NCBI GenBank assembly: GCA_028714815.1
Contig: JAQTLR010000003.1
Span: forward strand, 67,099-131,098
Source of the DNA: Candidatus Altimarinota bacterium
GTDB taxonomy: Bacteria > Patescibacteriota > Gracilibacteria > BD1-5 > UBA2023
Direction: 5' to 3'
Length of the DNA stretch: 64,000 nt
This document shows positions 21,631 to 48,417 of this stretch, one piece after another (position 1 is the stretch's first letter; every line of letters begins with the position of its first letter). Below the pieces are notes generated by a model. The model saw only the letters and a list, made by a program, of their open reading frames with translations. It ran no database searches and was not told the origin of the DNA. Made by a program: the position numbers and the translations under genes.

Positions 21631-22962
21631 TTACAAGCAAAATCTATACACCCCCTCCACAATCGCTCTTTTCTCGAAAACAAAGCCGGGGGCTAACTCG
21701 AAGTTCTCCGGCGTGCACTCGATGTAATTTTGTGTCCATCCGATTCCTTTCCCTTCCACCAGAACCCGGAAACCCTTCCCGTCGTTCGCCGCAAGAAACG
21801 ATCGTCTCACCCGCTCCCCCTCTGCCATGAGGGTATCGAGACGCTCTGTTTTTACCCGTTCCTCCACCTGGTTGGGGAATTTCCCGGCAGGCACCGAATA
21901 GTGCTCCTTATGTGCGGAAAAGGGGAACGCGTGGAGCTGGGTGATCCCATATGTCGCAATGAGCCCGAGGGTATCTTGGAAATCCGAATCGGTTTCGCCC
22001 GGGAACCCGACGATCAAATCCGCTCCGATATTGATTTGCACACCATCTTCCCGTTTCAGGGAACGCAGACCTCCGAGAACCTGCAAAAGCTTTGCCCGGT
22101 CATAGTGGCGATTCATGGATTTGAGAATACTATCTGAACCGGACTGGATCGACAGATGGATATAAGCGCTCAATCGAGGGTTTCTGAAGAGTTCCAAGAG
22201 CCTATTATCGACAAACTCGACACCCAAACTCGACACACGGAGTCTCGGGAGGGTAGTTTTACCCATGATCTCCTCTATAAGTTCAGGAAAATGGGTGTCG
22301 GAGACATCCTCCGAACTCTTCGCCCCCCAAGCCCCGAGATTGGTTCCCGTGAGGACTACCTCTTTTCATCCGCTCGCCACGAAATCATCGATTTCCGCGA
22401 TGATATCTTCGGCGGATCTCGACTTGTGCCGTCCGCGTGCCTGGACCGTCAAACAGAATGTGCAGAAATTATCACACCCCGTCTGGATGACGATGAATTT
22501 CTTGGTATGAAGTCCGGTCCCTGTTATGGCTGCTTTTTGAAGGCGGAATTTGAGGTCTTTTCACCTCACCCCTAACCCCTCTCCTAGAAGGAGAGGGGAA
22601 TATCCATTATCATCTTTTACTCTCTCTCCTCATAGGAGAGAGTTGGAGAGAGGTGGGTCCTCCGGATCCTCCGGCAAGAGCTCGATCTTATCCCGGAAAG
22701 GCAGGAGTTCCGGGTAGATGGCGTAGAAATCCCCATCGATATCGCCTTCTTTCAGTGATCCGCACCCGGAAAGATAGAGCTTTTCGCCTTCTTTCAAGGT
22801 CTTCAGTCTTTGTTTCGCGAAACGTACCCACTTGGATTTCGCTTTATCGGTCACCACGCAGGAGCTCACAAAAACCCCTTCTTTTCCAGCAAGAAGGGGG
22901 CTTTCCGCCCAGCGGTCGGTGAAGTATTTATTGGTTTTGCAACCGAAGATCTTATATTCCAT
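21631..22962 (-). CDS. mtaB: MtaB-type tRNA methylthiotransferase with in-frame repeat insertion
   Basis: 443 aa, ATG 22962 to TAA. UGA codons at 22630-22632, 22561-22563 and 22366-22368. N-terminal UPF0004 domain with three Cys (FGCKTN, SSCVVT, SGCGS), the radical SAM motif CDNFCTFC, GADLIVGFPGET and a C-terminal TRAM-like domain. MtaB adds a methylthio group to t6A37 of tRNAs reading ANN codons. Between the two domains about 31 residues are encoded by a palindromic repeat (22562-22655) that keeps frame. The family has no such insertion. Confidence 0.92.
22562..22655 (-). repeat. Palindromic repeat inserted in frame in mtaB
   Basis: 94 bp with 6-bp terminal inverted repeats (CACCTC / GAGGTG) and two hairpins, each a CTCTCCT-type arm facing its AGGAGAG complement. 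It is clearly related to the 83-bp element at 27341-27423 in mnmA. On the coding strand it begins in the same reading frame in both genes, encoding PLxxxLLGGE. Confidence 0.85.
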
Positions 22963-26689: not shown

Positions 26690-27796
26690 TTATTCGATAA
26701 TTCCACTTCCTACCACCTCATCCCCGTCATACACCACGACCACCTGTCCGCTCGTTATAGCCCTCTGCGGAGCGCTGAACCGGACCCTGACACGGTTTTC
26801 GCCATCTTGGACACACTCAATGTCCTGGTCGTCCTGACGGTAGCGGATCTTGGCTTGCGCCCGGAACGGAAACTCCCGAGTCTCACCTACCCAATGCCAA
26901 TCGATAGCAGTGAGTTCGGATGAATACAGTTCCAATTCCGCCTCGGTCCCGACCGTAATGGTATTGCTCACGATATCCTTCGCCACGACGAAGAGCGCCG
27001 GACCCCCTCCGACTTGTATCCCTTTCCGCTGCCCGATCGTGTAACTGAAGGCCCCTTCGTGCGTCCCGAGAATCTTTCCGCTTGTATCGATGATGTCCCC
27101 TGGCTTTTTCGGAAGGCGTTTTTCCAGGAACTCCTTCATGCTCACCTTCCCGATGAAACAGAGCCCCTGACTGTCCTTACGCTCCGCGTTCGGGAGCCCT
27201 GCCTTGCGGGCGATCTCCCGGACTTCCGATTTCTCTAGGTGTCCGATGGGGAAAAGCGCGTGCGCGAGCTGGAACTGGTTGAGTCGAGACAGGAAATAGG
27301 TCTGGTCCTTGTTGGGATCCACTCACTTCAGGAGGTGATACACCTCATCCCCGACCCTTCTCCTAGAAGGAGAAGGGGGTTTTATTATTCCCTCTCCTCC
27401 TAGGAGAGGTTTAGGGAGAGGTGTAATCCTCGCATAGTGTCCGGTGGCGATCTTGTCGAACCCGTACTCGAGCGCCTCCTCCAGAAAACAATCGAACTTC
27501 ACGAGATTGTTGCAGAGAATGTCCGGATTTGGGGTGAGCCCTTTCCGGTATCCCTCATAGATATAGTTCACGATGCGTTTTTCGTACTCTTCCCGGAAAT
27601 CGAACGTATGGAACGGGAGTCCCAAGTACTCGGCCACTTTCCGGGCCTCTTCCATATCCGCAAGCGTCGGGCAGTCATCGGTATCGGAGATATAGTTGAT
27701 CATAAACCCGCACGACACCTCATGCCCCGCTTCAGAGAGAAGATAGGCGACGACAGCGGAATCCACTCCGCCCGAGAGTCCTACGAGAATGCGCAT
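26690..27796 (-). CDS. mnmA: tRNA-specific 2-thiouridylase MnmA with in-frame repeat insertion
   Basis: 368 aa, ATG 27796 to TAA. UGA at 27323-27325 is the Gly of LLK-Gly-VDPNKDQTYFL. PP-loop SGGVDSAV, catalytic Cys in NPDILCNN and GLCFIG, and IGQRKG are present. MnmA thiolates U34 of Glu, Gln and Lys tRNAs. After GHYARI about 28 residues come from a palindromic repeat (27341-27423) inserted in frame; normal MnmA goes from this motif almost directly to the LLKG block. Convergent with the M23 gene, 3 bp between stops. Confidence 0.94.
27341..27423 (-). repeat. Palindromic repeat inserted in frame in mnmA
   Basis: 83 bp, ends CACCTC / GAGGTG, with two hairpins (CTCTCCTAGGAGGAGAG-type and CTTCTCCTTCTAGGAGAAG). 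Clearly homologous to 22562-22655 in mtaB; the centre differs and is 11 bp shorter. Translated as TPLPKPLLGGEG and onward without frameshift or stop. Confidence 0.85.
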
Positions 27797-27803
27797 TATG
27801 GTT

Positions 27804-28637
27804 TTATCGATTATCTGATCCCCTCTCCCAAAGCGAGAACCATATATTATATACTTCCTTGAATTTTTCATTATTCTCCTGGTTCTCATCGATGAATCCC
27901 GAAGATACGACATACAGGAATAATCCGTCGATATCGCATCGGTGAGCATCTATGAATGCGACGATACTTGGAATATCCTGTGAGTACCACTGTATAAGGG
28001 GTGTTATCTGATTTTTAAGAACATTATGCATCAAAGGAGCAGGATGGGCGATCCGTGCTTTGCTATTTGTAGCCCGCATAGCATAAATAGCCCCGGAGAT
28101 ATAGGAGAGTTTCTCATACATCTTGAACATCTTATAGAGACGATGCTGTTCATTGAAATCGATCGTATAGCAATCCACTGCGAATCGATGGAGATCGGGA
28201 TGTTTCACGACGGAACCGATAACGGATGTCCCTGCCTCGAATTCCTCCTCTTTCGTATGTTTCACCAGATGTTTCTTATCATAACAGGTATCGCCGATGT
28301 CGGGATGGGTTTCTCCGAGATCATGGACCAGTCCGGTAACGCGGAGCTGGAAATGTTCCGATGGGGAAAGCGGGGATCATTCGAGAATTCATGATTCCAC
28401 TAATGAAGGATGGTTGATATCGAACCGTCCGTAGTTCCGGATGAGTCGGGCCTGATGTCGCTGATGATCATAGACATTTCCATCACCCGGAACCTGCCCG
28501 AGAACTTGCATCACCCTTCCCGAAACCGGACCGACAGGAAGCGGGAGCTCTCCCGTAAAATCCCCCCATCGATATGCACCGACCCCGGCATTCCTGTATC
28601 CTTCGGTATCCGTAAGATTGAGTATGGATGTTTTCAT
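27804..28637 (-). CDS. HD-domain phosphohydrolase
   Basis: 277 aa, ATG 28637 to TAA. Two adjacent UGA codons (VES-Gly-ILE-Gly-SPL). HD-type metal ligands are likely in YDHQRHQARL, LVHDLGETHPDIGD and the later VVKHPDLHRFAVD. It probably hydrolyses a nucleotide or phosphoester; the substrate is unknown. It ends 7 bp before mnmA starts, same strand. Confidence 0.8.
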
Positions 28638-34049: not shown

Positions 34050-34103
34050 AATCAACATATAAAAACCCTCTTCGGATCCGAAGAGGGTTTTTATATGTTG
34101 ATT
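34050..34103. terminator. Long palindromic terminator after typA
   Basis: 27-bp perfect arms centred on GGATCC, with ACCCTCTTC / GAAGAGGGT and A/T-runs. Also faces the tRNA cluster on the other strand. Confidence 0.9.
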
Positions 34104-43569: not shown

Positions 43570-44796
43570 TCGCACATAACTCGTGAATAAAAGTATGGAT
43601 TCAAAGAATAAGATGGTTGATAGTGGTAAAATATCGCTTATGGACCCTATTTGGATGAAATAGTATATGATGGAAAGGATATTGAAGCCTATTCCGATAA
43701 TATGGAGCATATAGAGACTTTTAGTATATTTTATATACCATACATAACTTACCCCGATAAATAAATACGGGAGGAGAAAGATGAAAATAAGATCGTGGAT
43801 AAAAGAGAAATTTCACAAAAGAAAGAATATCTTTGTATACAGAAATAGGATAGTCAAGAGAAAAACAGTATATGAGATGTAATTCTTGAAAAATCTATAC
43901 ACCGCATAATGATAGAGTAGGGATATGCCGAGCACAAGACTATAGAATAAAGGAAGGGAGGATTCAAATAGGATGGTTGCGGTAATAGAAAAAGAAAGAG
44001 TATATCCCATGTATATACCGATGGTTTGAGATATATATCTGAATGGTTTAAAATAAGAGAGCGATGGAAAAATAAAGGTATAGACGATCATGAAAAATGA
44101 TGTCATTATCATGAATATATGCCAAAGAGGGATGATCGGAAAGAGTATTGATGTATAATATCCCGTTACAAGGAAACTATAAAAAAGGAAGATACCGTAC
44201 ATATATTTCTTTTTTTTTCTAAAAAATGGATCAAACAATAAAACACTTAGGAGCGTAATGATGGGGAATATGCTATTTATAACAAAAAACGTGCTAGGAA
44301 TGGTATGTTTACCAATAAAAAAGAGAAGGAAAAAACCATAGATTACAGTAAAAATACTACAGTTTGATCGGAAAATAAGGAAAACGGTTTCATTCCTCTT
44401 CTGGAGAAAGAAGAAAAATATACCGGTGATGACACAGGAAATAAAAAAAGTGATATAATGGAATATTTCAGAAAAATCCGTGAAATCATAGATAAGATTT
44501 ATACTATAGATAAATCCATAGAGGGATATATAAAAAAATAGAAAGGATGCATAATACGATCATTTTTTTAAAAATTCTACGATGTTTTTTATAGGAATCC
44601 TTTTTTCTTTTTTATCATCAGCACTATGATCCCCTTCTTCAATACTCTCTTTTCCGATAAAAAAAGAGAGTATTCTACTGAAATATATAATGAATAGTAT
44701 CGATATTATTCAAAATAGAACACTTTCTATATACTGTCAAAATAGAAAAAAAAAGAGCGTGAAACTTATATTGATAAGAGAAAATAAAAAAACCAT
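43558..44796 (-). CDS. Polytopic membrane protein, last gene of unknown operon
   Basis: 412 aa, ATG 44796 to TAA. Four UGA=Gly codons, so it is invisible as one gene in the standard code. About ten to twelve hydrophobic helices (for example VLFGIISILFIIYF, IFHYITFFISCVITGIFFFFL, LPYLFIGVSYVWYI) with a charged loop (EEGDHSADDKKEKR). It starts 3 bp after the stop of the upstream gene. No transporter motif recognised. Confidence 0.7.
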
Positions 44797-44799
44797 CCC

Positions 44800-46146
44800 T
44801 TAGAAGTTAAGTTGTAGAAAGATACAGAAGAATGCAAAAATTCCTACATATCCTAAAAGATAGGAATTATTTTTTATGATTCTTGTAAGGAAAGAAAAAA
44901 ATGAAAGGATGACGAGAAGGAATAATACAGAATAATTAAAAGAATGGAATCACCCGAGAGAAAAGTATATGAAAAATAGCGAATATACGAATATATTGTA
45001 TATCATATAATCTCCTGATGTTTTTAATAGAAAAATACCTATATCAGTATAATATTGCAATCACTTGACTATGCTCGTATAAGAAAATTTCACGTTTTTG
45101 ATACGTTTTTCTATGAGTTGTATATTTTGGATAATAAGTCTTTTCCGTATAGAAAGACGTACTATCCTATCTTTTTGAAAGAAGATAGTAGCTAAAAAAA
45201 GGTCTTTTTGTACAATCCGAAGTTTTTCCTTATAAAGATTGAGCTCCCGGAGATTTTTATAAAAAATAAATGATTGTGTATCGATCTTCTTTTCTTCTGA
45301 TGGAGCTTCTTTTTTTGTGAAAAAATTACGGATCATATCCTTGATGACACGCTGTATTTTTAATGATACGTCTGTTTCCGGATTACGAATCTTCACTCAT
45401 GAACCGAACCTCTTTAAAAGATCATTGGTTTCTTTGAGAAATTCTTGTTTCTCCCCGATTTTATTCGATTGGATAAGCTCCAATTCCAATTCTCCGATTT
45501 TTATAAGAGCATTTTCTGAAACAATCCGAAGTTTATCGATATTAGTGGTATTCTTTAATTGTTTCAGGGTTGCCAAGAAATCATGAAGCCGCATCTTCCT
45601 TTCGGAATCTATATATTGACCATAGGTATTCAATATCGTTTCTATTTTCTGAAGGATCTTATCTATGAGAAGGTAATATCTCTGTATTTCTTTACCAACA
45701 AACGTATCGGAAATATCGGAATAGGCTGCTTGAACTTGTGTGGTTTGCTCTATCTTTTCTTCTTTTTTCACCTCTTTTTTCGTATTTTGTTCCAAATACA
45801 GAAGATATCCGGAGTGGATTTTCGAAGTGGTGAATCTTTTTTCCTCTTCTGTCGCATTCTTATCCTCATAAATAGCTACCACCTGATAATGGAGATCATT
45901 CACGAGTTTAATGTACGCCTTGAAAATATCAGTCGATTGAATCTGTCCGCTTTTCTTATTCCCATCGAGGATTATATCGAAATAGAATATATTCCCTTGA
46001 TTCTCTTTCCCTTCCACCTGTTTGATCTCGATGATAGAATATCCCTGTCTATGAAGCGCTTGTCGGGCTTCTTCCAGGGAATTGTATTGTACAATCATCT
46101 CTACCTTCTGATTGTTTTTCGCACAGATAGCTTGAAAGCTTTGCAT
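44800..46146 (-). CDS. Coiled-coil protein with C-terminal membrane domain
   Basis: 448 aa, ATG 46146 to TAA. UGA=Gly at 45397-45399, 45061-45063 and 44941-44960 region (FSLG-Gly-FHS). The N-terminal domain (IVQYNSLEEARQALHRQGYSIIEIKQVE) resembles a short N-domain of GspF/PilC-like proteins. Then come a middle of mixed and helical segments (IQRYYLLIDKILQKIETIL, IKIGELELELIQ), a Lys/Arg-rich helical region and two or three membrane helices. The PilC similarity is weak and hydrophobic segments are few, so this is only suggestive. Confidence 0.65.
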
Positions 46147-46153
46147 ATTATAT

Positions 46154-46375
46154 TTAAGAGATAGTATTTTTAAGATCTTGTAATCATCACTTTGCTGTTT
46201 TTATGGTTTCTTGTATCTTTTTTTGACGAGCAAGTCATGGAAGTCACTCAAAAAGTTTTGCAACCACCTGTTGATTTTCCGGATTCTTTTCAAAAAAATC
46301 AGAAAATCATTCTTTCACCTTCCGAAGAGAAAATTGAAAATTTTCCTGAAGGGAATTAATGATATCTTTACTCAT
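46154..46375 (-). CDS. Small protein, gene invisible without UGA=Gly
   Basis: 73 aa, ATG 46375 to TAA, with five UGA codons, including a tandem pair near the end (TAK-Gly-Gly-LQDLKNTIS). Amphipathic, highly charged helices (SLRKVKEGFSDFFEKN) are typical of a small partner protein. It fits exactly between its neighbours with 6- and 7-bp gaps, which supports reality. Confidence 0.65.
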
Positions 46376-46381
46376 GATAGA

Positions 46382-46693
46382 TTAGATATTATCGAATAAT
46401 ATATTGAACTCCGTATTATATATTTCCTCTTTTTTTTCCTTTTCCTGTATTTCCCGTATTTTCTCCGTCTGTTTCGCTTGTAAAGCTATTACATCTTTTT
46501 CTTCGAGGATATCTATGAGAGCAGTGAGCTTCTTATAAAAAAGATCCAAGTATTCATCATCGAGTATATCGAGCGACTCAAAATAGAGTTGTTCCTGTTT
46601 CTTATCCAATGCAAGACGAAAAATAACCTCACGGATAACCTGACGTTTTTCATTGTTTTTCGAGAATTTCTTCAAAAGATTTCAGAGAAACAT
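46382..46693 (-). CDS. Small charged protein, first gene of the operon
   Basis: 103 aa, ATG 46693 to TAA. UGA is codon 4 (MFL-Gly-NLLKKF). The protein is helical throughout (REVIFRLALDKKQEQLYFES, KIREIQEKEKKEEIYN), with a probable coiled coil. No family recognised. A good promoter (46731-46758) lies just upstream, so this is the operon head. Confidence 0.65.
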
Positions 46694-46730
46694 TTTTTTT
46701 ATTCCGATTTAAAATAAATCATACGTGTCC

Positions 46731-46758
46731 AGTATATCATTTTTATACGAAATAACAA
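46731..46758 (-). promoter_or_regulatory. Promoter of the four-gene operon
   Basis: On the minus strand TTGTTA (46758-46753) and TATACT (46736-46731), 16-bp spacer, 38 bp before the first ATG. The 370-bp divergent region 46694-47064 is AT-rich and holds this and the opposite promoter; I see nothing else in it. Confidence 0.6.
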
Positions 46759-46982
46759 AATATTTCAATATTTATTTATCCATGATTTATAATAGTATTA
46801 ATTTAATATTTAATAGATAGTAATATATAATATCGATATTCATAAAAAAACCGTTCTCTTTATAAACAACTATCTTATAAAAAGTTTTAAACATTTTTTT
46901 ATGGATAAAACCATAGTGATATCCTATCTAAAAGAAATAAAATACTTTTGAACATTATTTTTATTTAAAAGAAATAAATCAT

Positions 46983-47017
46983 TTGACTTGTTTTTTTAGA
47001 GAAATTCGTACTATAAA
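46983..47017 (+). promoter_or_regulatory. Candidate promoter of the S41 protease gene
   Basis: TATAAA (47012-47017) with TTGTTT 18 bp upstream (46988); a TTGACT at 46983 is also near. 48 bp before the ATG. Confidence 0.45.
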
Positions 47018-47064
47018 ACTTGTGAAGAATGTTTTGTCCTATTTTATCATTTCTTAATAAGATC

Positions 47065-48417
47065 ATGTCGATTTCCCGTAAAAACGTATTCATATATCTC
47101 GTATGTTTCCTTTCTTTCCTTTTCTGAATAATAATAAATACCCTTTTTCCTCTTCGGATATTCGAAGAGCGGGCACAATATTTCATGGATTCGAAATTTT
47201 GAATAAAAACTCCCATTGTTACTCAAAAAAATCAGGATCTAAAAAAAACAACCCCACTAAATCTCGATCTTTTTTATGAAGCATATAAACAGGCATCGGA
47301 AAATTATTATGGATTTGATACCCTCTCTGAAAAAGATCTTGTTTCCGGTATGATAAAAGGGTTCGTTGATTCTTTCTGAGATAAACATAGCGAATATTTC
47401 AATATCGATGAGACAAAGAAATTCAATGAAGTGCTTTCCGGTGATTTCGAGGGAATTGGAGCGGTAATAGAAAAAAACGATTTTTGAGTGGTGATCGAGC
47501 GGATTATCGCAGGATCTCCGGCAAAGGAAGCAGGACTTATCTCAGGGGATATCATCACGAAGGCGAATAATGAAGAACTCAAGGATCTGAGTCTGACGGA
47601 TGCAGTTTCGAAAATACGGGGGAAGGCCGATACGACGGTTAGTTTAGAGGTGATTCGGGCGGGGCAGAAAGAAATCATGACAAAAGTGGTGACACGGAAG
47701 AAGATTGATATCCCCTCCGTGGATGGGAAAATGATCGATGGGACGAGTATCGGGTATATCGCTCTTTCTATTTTCGGGGAGAAAACGGCAGATGATTTCA
47801 ATAAAACCCTTACCGATCTAGAGAATCAGAAAGCGACCGGACTCATCATCGATCTCCGTGATAATGGGGGAGGATATTTGGAAACCGCGGTTTCCATCCT
47901 TTCTAATTTCGTGGAGAAAGATAAGGTTCTTGTGACAACTAAAGAGAAAAATCCATTTCTCAATAGATCTTATTTCTCGTATGGGAATACAGGAAAATCT
48001 CTTCCGATCGTGGTTCTTATAAATGAAAATTCCGCATCTGCATCGGAGATCACTGCCGGAGCCTTAAAAGACTATAATCTCGCGATCCTTGTCGGACAGA
48101 AGAGTTATGGAAAAGGTTCCGTTCAACAACCATTCAATCTTTCTGATGGAAGTGAGATGAAGATAACGGTGGCGAAATGGTATACGCCGAAAGATTATGG
48201 AATCGATAAGATCGGGATCAATCCGGATATCGAAGTGAAATTTGAACCGGAAGATTATGATAAGAAATACGATAGGCAATTGGAAGAAGCAAAAAAAATA
48301 CTCTTTCAATTCATCAAAACCGGAGATAAACAAAAAACCGTGGATGGATACTTGAAGAATAAGGAAGTGCTTCTGAAAAAATCATCGGAAACCGCTTCAG
48401 GATCTCTAGGAAAATAA
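47065..48417 (+). CDS. ctpA: C-terminal processing protease (S41, PDZ)
   Basis: 450 aa, ATG 47065 to TAA. Four UGA=Gly codons, all before position 47490. N-terminal membrane helix (IYLVCFLSFLFGIII), a PDZ domain (GVVIERIIAGSPAKEAGLISGD), and the S41 catalytic Ser in ENSASASEITAGAL with Lys in GQKSYGKGSVQQ. Acts outside the membrane on exported proteins. Usual length for CtpA. Confidence 0.93.

Follow-up and report, generated by a model that had tools for sequence, protein, structure and literature searches.

Within a gene for a methylthiotransferase of the MiaB/RimO family in a Candidatus Altimarinota bacterium, a palindromic segment of 94 bp separates the parts encoding the UPF0004 and radical SAM domains, which raises the questions of what this segment is, how the gene remains readable and by what means such a sequence could have entered it. 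In the window (the whole stretch of 64,000 nucleotides analysed here) the element consists of two inverted units, each composed of a tail and a hairpin, with the ends CACCTC/GAGGTG (Table 1). The two hairpins were located at 22576-22598 and 22622-22642 by an inverted-repeat search. As an RNA the element is predicted to fold with -47.3 kcal/mol (z = -4.1), and none of 200 shuffled sequences folded equally well. Sequence, repeats and RNA fold thus agree with the ends and the two hairpins that the original prediction had described. Solo copies of unit 1 were found elsewhere in the genome (BLAST, query positions 1-37 to 1-42). The window also contains two perfect palindromes that lack a loop (2 x 27 bp at 34050-34103 and 2 x 24 bp at 2896-2943) and a stretch with a GC content of 32% compared with ~45% elsewhere (44001-48000), which is possibly acquired DNA.

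Table 1. Features of the element, its host genes and copies outside genes (positions refer to the window)
Feature	Position	Strand	Description
mtaB-like gene (MiaB/RimO-family radical SAM methylthiotransferase)	21634..22962	-	443 aa, UGA read as Gly
94-bp palindromic element	22562..22655	-	translated as residues 103-134 PPLSNSLLGGERVKDDNGYSPLLLGEGLGVRG of the MtaB-like protein
Outer hairpin unit 1	22562..22598	+	C-rich tail CACCTCACCCCTAA and hairpin CCCCTCTCCTAGAAGGAGAGGGG; inverted repeat I3, 10/10 complementary
A/T-rich spacer	22599..22621	.	separates units 1 and 2; assigned from the sequence
Inverted hairpin unit 2	22622..22655	-	hairpin CTCTCTCCTCATAGGAGAGAG and tail with end GAGAGAGGTG; inverted repeats I1, I2
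mnmA (tRNA 2-thiouridine synthase)	26693..27949	-	open frame from upstream stop; NF001138 MnmA 410 bits, above cut-off 284
Second element copy	27341..27423	-	in frame inside mnmA TPLPKPLLGGEGIIKPPSPSRRRVGDEV
Example peptide across insert-host junction			LLPEDPEDPPLSNSLL
Extragenic copy L285			directly 3' of def stop codon
Extragenic copy L293			upstream of cNMP-binding ORF
Extragenic match L030			weak, terminator-like
Hairpin match	C6:52621		end of ORF without Pfam match

The host ORF is uninterrupted over its 443 aa once UGA is taken as a sense codon. Its product matches Radical_SAM (PF04055) at 1.6e-20 and has MtaB (TIGR01579) as its best family; since the score of 249 bits lies below the model cut-off of 357, as does that of an orthologue with an empty site (265 bits), 'MtaB-like' is the safe name. 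UGA has been reported as a glycine codon in Candidatus Gracilibacteria (PMC4032931), the group in which MtaB matches place the organism. Two UGA codons belong to the element: the loop of the first hairpin contains one, and the other is formed by the final TG of the element together with the flanking A. A third UGA of the gene coincides with a conserved Gly-Gly-Lys-Glu position, which fits the reading of UGA as Gly. Although the length of 94 bp is not a multiple of 3, the inserted in-frame segment comprises 32 codons, which preserves the frame; a small flanking change therefore accompanied the insertion. Both the two UGA codons and the translation without frameshift, in a single ORF with a 32-codon insert, had been read from the sequence beforehand and were borne out. 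The accompanying statement that the segment is open only under the altered code holds for the mtaB copy and fails as a general rule: judged from the translations, only ~7 of 18 inserts with an empty site for comparison contain UGA. The altered code helps, is not needed for most inserts and hence is no general explanation.

In the AlphaFold model of the MtaB-like protein, pLDDT is below 50 over residues 103-135 (27-37 over most of them, ~30), and mostly 80-95 in the domains on either side. We infer that the insert is translated in the cell and, from this model and the variable linkers of relatives, that it would be a tolerated disordered loop of ~32 residues linking the UPF0004 and the radical SAM domain. 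Alignments show the insert sequences of this genome (G000) and the congener G004 to be far more diverged than their flanks; no selection is therefore evident on the insert peptide itself. Throughout the order, the linker between the two domains of MtaB-like relatives varies in length and sequence, a variability shared by all of them that would also fit a fast-evolving native linker, repetitive by chance, or an assembly artefact. The distribution of the element makes the probability of this negligible. BLAST searches with the element yielded no fewer than eight complete or almost complete copies, together with many half copies, in the genome; the full-length copies of ~90 bp lie in unrelated genes, are up to 87% identical and reach E-values down to 1e-25. 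The hairpin pattern CTCTCCN{3,8}GGAGAG has 33 exact cores in the 1.2 Mb genome compared with 0 for the reversed control. Furthermore, the site in the congener G006 lacks the element, and such elements recur at the same sites in independently assembled genomes of relatives. A native linker or artefact is thus refuted by the copies elsewhere in the genome.

Using the UGA-as-sense reading and a Pfam scan, we assigned the in-gene copies to 21 in-frame sites in 18 conserved genes; the census was compiled from BLAST and pattern searches, from which diverged copies may escape. The genes encode the MtaB-like protein, MnmA, DnaX, an Elp3-like protein, RNase R (two sites), a PBP1A-type protein (two sites), a DHH phosphoesterase, a ClpB-type ATPase, UvrD (two sites), a VWA/BatA protein, an AcrB-type pump, a GT4 glycosyltransferase, a Pol I 5'-exonuclease, an RsmF-type methyltransferase, UPF0489, UvrC, HflX and a PriA-domain protein. 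All 21 inserts keep the frame and are free of in-frame stops. After de-duplication, the in-gene hairpins are read as LLxGE (n = 17), as PSPxRR (n = 4) or in the third frame (n = 2), which contains UAG if the loop is CTAG. Five hairpin matches (C1:242204, C3:31604, C3:103634, C4:70568 and C8:27970) were left out of the count, element tails being judged absent there. Only two or three copies lie outside genes, so that the balance of in-gene and intergenic copies, which the original prediction had proposed to establish, is clearly on the side of the genes.

Orthologous sites without insert were found in congeners for 18 of the 21 insertion sites, both with chimeric flank queries from which the inserts were left out and by direct alignment. 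In G006 (81% identical) the mtaB site is empty, with a short linker of unrelated sequence in its place, inserts are present in G002 and G004, and most relatives have other short linkers; the empty site sought in close relatives thus exists, and the segment is absent from most mtaB orthologues. Most of the sites are filled in G004 too, often by different sequences. The MnmA site is empty in G006, is occupied by a DUF559 element in both G001 and G036, and in G004 (L354, C65) holds another palindrome family with the insert VIPAEAGIQ...LDPRIREDD, which we take to resemble a repeat peptide of other bacteria. With three different kinds of element at this one site across genomes, the same loops are used repeatedly. 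Also, short elements of a CCCCCT type lie in frame in G001 at the same PBP1A and UPF0489 sites as the element of G000. Most of the genomes compared are metagenome assemblies. By eye, no obvious target-site duplication was seen in comparison with empty sites from genomes ~80% alike in protein; because the genomes are only that similar and their linkers differ, an exact insertion joint is not definable.

The longer elements connect these palindromes with a protein domain. In the RsmF gene of G000 (L290), two half-elements bracket an in-frame DUF559 domain, and the DUF559 gene occupies the position of the spacer between the units, both here and in an element on contig C1 of G004. Across the order, DUF559 matches directly adjoin element matches. 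In G004, each of the three DUF559 genes forms part of the reading frame of a core gene (RsmF, RecG or MiaB); in total, DUF559 elements were found in frame in RsmF, RecG, MiaB and MnmA, and some of these sites hold short elements elsewhere. Many other DUF559 genes (f2 genomes) seem to be free-standing, with short open frames. At the MiaB site, DUF559 is present in G004, G017, G024 and G028; in G004 (L243, C83) four tandem in-frame copies of SVNQSPNPLSQGGT, with the hairpin CCCCCTTGAGAAAGGGGG, adjoin the domain. The same site in G019 (L269) and G012 (L270) carries an in-frame domain that resembles, by eye, a HAD-type 5'-nucleotidase.

We aligned the left flank of each DUF559 gene with the reverse complement of its right flank. 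Matching inverted flanks were obtained for 49 of 68 DUF559 loci in Gracilibacteria compared with 4.9% of mismatched pairs, and for 13 of 30 loci in other Patescibacteria compared with 3.1%; the DUF559 frames listed in the latter are almost without internal stop codons. In an earlier run with a looser threshold, 3 of 31 control genes had matched flanks. The nearest DUF559 relatives in different genomes share their flank type (score 18.6 vs. 8.2 +/- 0.6 for the null), and overall the correlation of DUF559 protein distance with flank similarity is weak but significant (Spearman -0.22). About one quarter of the DUF559 loci are without matching flanks, which counts against reading DUF559 as part of the element. 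Matched flanks also occur on some plasmids of Deinococcus, Azospirillum, Pseudanabaena and Sphingomonas. On plasmid pPg_02 of Pseudanabaena galeata (L303) the flank-matched DUF559 lies within one long annotated gene (record 151946-156811), which suggests in-frame DUF559 insertion in cyanobacteria too. One match from a DNA-level plasmid search, on plasmid Cal7716_p4 of Calothrix sp. PCC 7716 (L306), is a complete, very similar element of ~90 bp located between genes (~1200-1290).

The hairpin family of the short elements agrees with the resident DUF559 in the genomes compared: G001, with the DUF559 flank CCCCCTGACAAGGGGG, has 22 hairpins of the CCCCCT and 4 of the CTCTCC type, G000 has 7 and 33, and G006, where DUF559 is absent, has 0 and 2, respectively. 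Other genomes count against this agreement. G004 has 22 CCCCCT hairpins beside its CTCTCC family, its MiaB DUF559 being CCCCCT-flanked as well; G003 has one DUF559 and few hairpins of either type; and G005 contains elements and no DUF559, which speaks against DUF559 as the mobiliser.

Alignment of ~73 DUF559 sequences, host-embedded ones included, shows little or no variation at the nuclease residues (E, D, E, D, H, D and others). DUF559 matches the homing endonuclease I-Bth0305I (PDB 3R3P) by sequence (8e-5) and by fold (5e-4), 3HRL likewise by sequence and fold, and Vsr by fold. A DUF559 gene of Thermosynechococcus has already been assigned to the EDxHD homing family (PMC9403480); for Caulobacter, a DUF559 protein was described as a Vsr-like repair enzyme (PMC12907096). 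Among the papers covered that mention DUF559, mainly by title and in part by text, no title on flanking palindromes was found.

Taken with the element copies, these results lead us to regard it as probable that the 94-bp segment derives from a DUF559 mobile element as a MITE-like form that is translated. A non-autonomous short element would have inserted into the flexible UPF0004-radical SAM linker of the MtaB-like enzyme and would simply be translated as a disordered loop, with no splicing involved. The surviving copies would be those that are in frame, stop-free and situated in loops or linkers of conserved proteins. In the autonomous full-length form, the same two units would enclose a gene for a DUF559 (EDxHD/Vsr-type) endonuclease, which most likely cuts or nicks DNA when the long and the short forms move.

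The reading frame would be irrelevant if the element were removed from RNA or protein in the manner of an intron or intein. Group I introns are a known setting of EDxHD nucleases, one paper on cyanobacteria discusses a DUF559 gene along with inteins, and the strong RNA fold of the element would suit removal. However, with 21 of 21 in-gene inserts in frame and stop-free, no intein domain matched by the Pfam scan in any host protein and no Rfam family at threshold, we consider removal extremely improbable. Seven sub-threshold Rfam matches, mostly to animal microRNAs and snoRNAs, were taken as chance, and a known RNA was rejected.

The palindromes might instead be moved by other machinery, such as template switching at single-stranded DNA hairpins or another transposase, with DUF559 as a homing passenger. 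The short elements of G005, which has no resident DUF559, and the tandem hairpins in MiaB of G004 are in line with this, and since DUF559 folds like a homing endonuclease, the palindrome could serve as its target. In contrast, hairpin family and DUF559 lineage travel together, the short elements of each genome tend to match the flanks of its own DUF559, and the element-bearing genomes are without RAYT. We therefore judge such machinery rather unlikely and favour DUF559 as the mobiliser over a passenger homing into palindromes. It is far less probable still that the element is an ordinary REP/BIME-type repeat moved by a RAYT (Y1) transposase. Like REPs and BIMEs it has a hairpin plus tail as its unit, single or in inverted pairs, and intragenic REPs are known, many of them in DNA repair genes (PMC3733652). 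However, its ends are neither GTAG nor CGTC, its copies are mostly intragenic rather than intergenic, and a DUF559 nuclease stands in place of the Y1 transposase. Y1_Tnp (PF01797) gave 0 matches in the four element-bearing genomes of the genus (G000, G002, G004 and G005), whereas 14 were obtained in G003, where such hairpins are few. On this distribution across genomes, we reject a RAYT/Y1 transposase as the mobiliser.

Protein-coding palindromes have reportedly been known since 2000. In the original prediction the element was likened to the Rickettsia palindromic elements (RPE; Ogata et al. 2000/2002), which are described in the later literature as dispersed hairpin elements of ~100-150 bp that lie in frame in unrelated conserved genes and are translated (PMC10969869, PMC2229807). 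A terminal CGTC tag has been reported for RPE, and the CGTC class, of which they are part, has no known transposase (PMC3733652). The likeness holds for the mode: hairpin-forming sequences, multiple in-frame copies in unrelated conserved genes and empty sites. The 94-bp element ends in CACCTC/GAGGTG where RPE end in CGTC, its host is a Patescibacterium with UGA = Gly and it has a DUF559-bearing long form; judged by sequence, it works like RPE, yet it is not assigned to them because the CGTC tag is absent. A repeat described in Gracilibacteria (PMC6851277) is a PTD tripeptide repeat and a different phenomenon.

A further parallel is offered by miniature elements whose ends recur in a longer form. 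Bacterial MITEs include Correia/NEMIS, ERIC and RUP. Like these, the 94-bp element is short and gene-free, has terminal inverted repeats and hairpins and shares its ends with a longer gene-bearing form, here the DUF559 elements in RsmF of G000 and G004. In contrast to MITEs, this long form encodes an EDxHD/Vsr-type nuclease and not a DDE transposase, and most copies are intragenic; no obvious target-site duplication was seen between genomes that are only ~80% alike in protein. DUF559 resembles EDxHD homing endonucleases (I-Bth0305I, 3R3P) and Vsr (1CW0) in catalytic fold and residues and, like these, is embedded in conserved genes. However, its place is within the reading frame of the host protein, with translated palindromes on both sides, and not in an intron or intein, and with ~100 aa it has no extra DNA-binding region.

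For the wider family, we see an even chance that the DUF559 nucleases of many bacteria represent an undescribed class of mobile element, a single EDxHD nuclease gene flanked by inverted tail-plus-hairpin units and able to enter core genes in frame and unspliced. Its nuclease-free derivatives would be the translated palindromes of this genome and perhaps other orphan protein-coding palindromes, for example RPE. The case provides a concrete candidate enzyme as well as paired long and short forms for protein-coding palindromes, and several element families re-use the same permissive loops. It suggests a role for DUF559, a widespread 'domain of unknown function', and the inserts explain extra loops that confuse the annotation of core genes in Patescibacteria.
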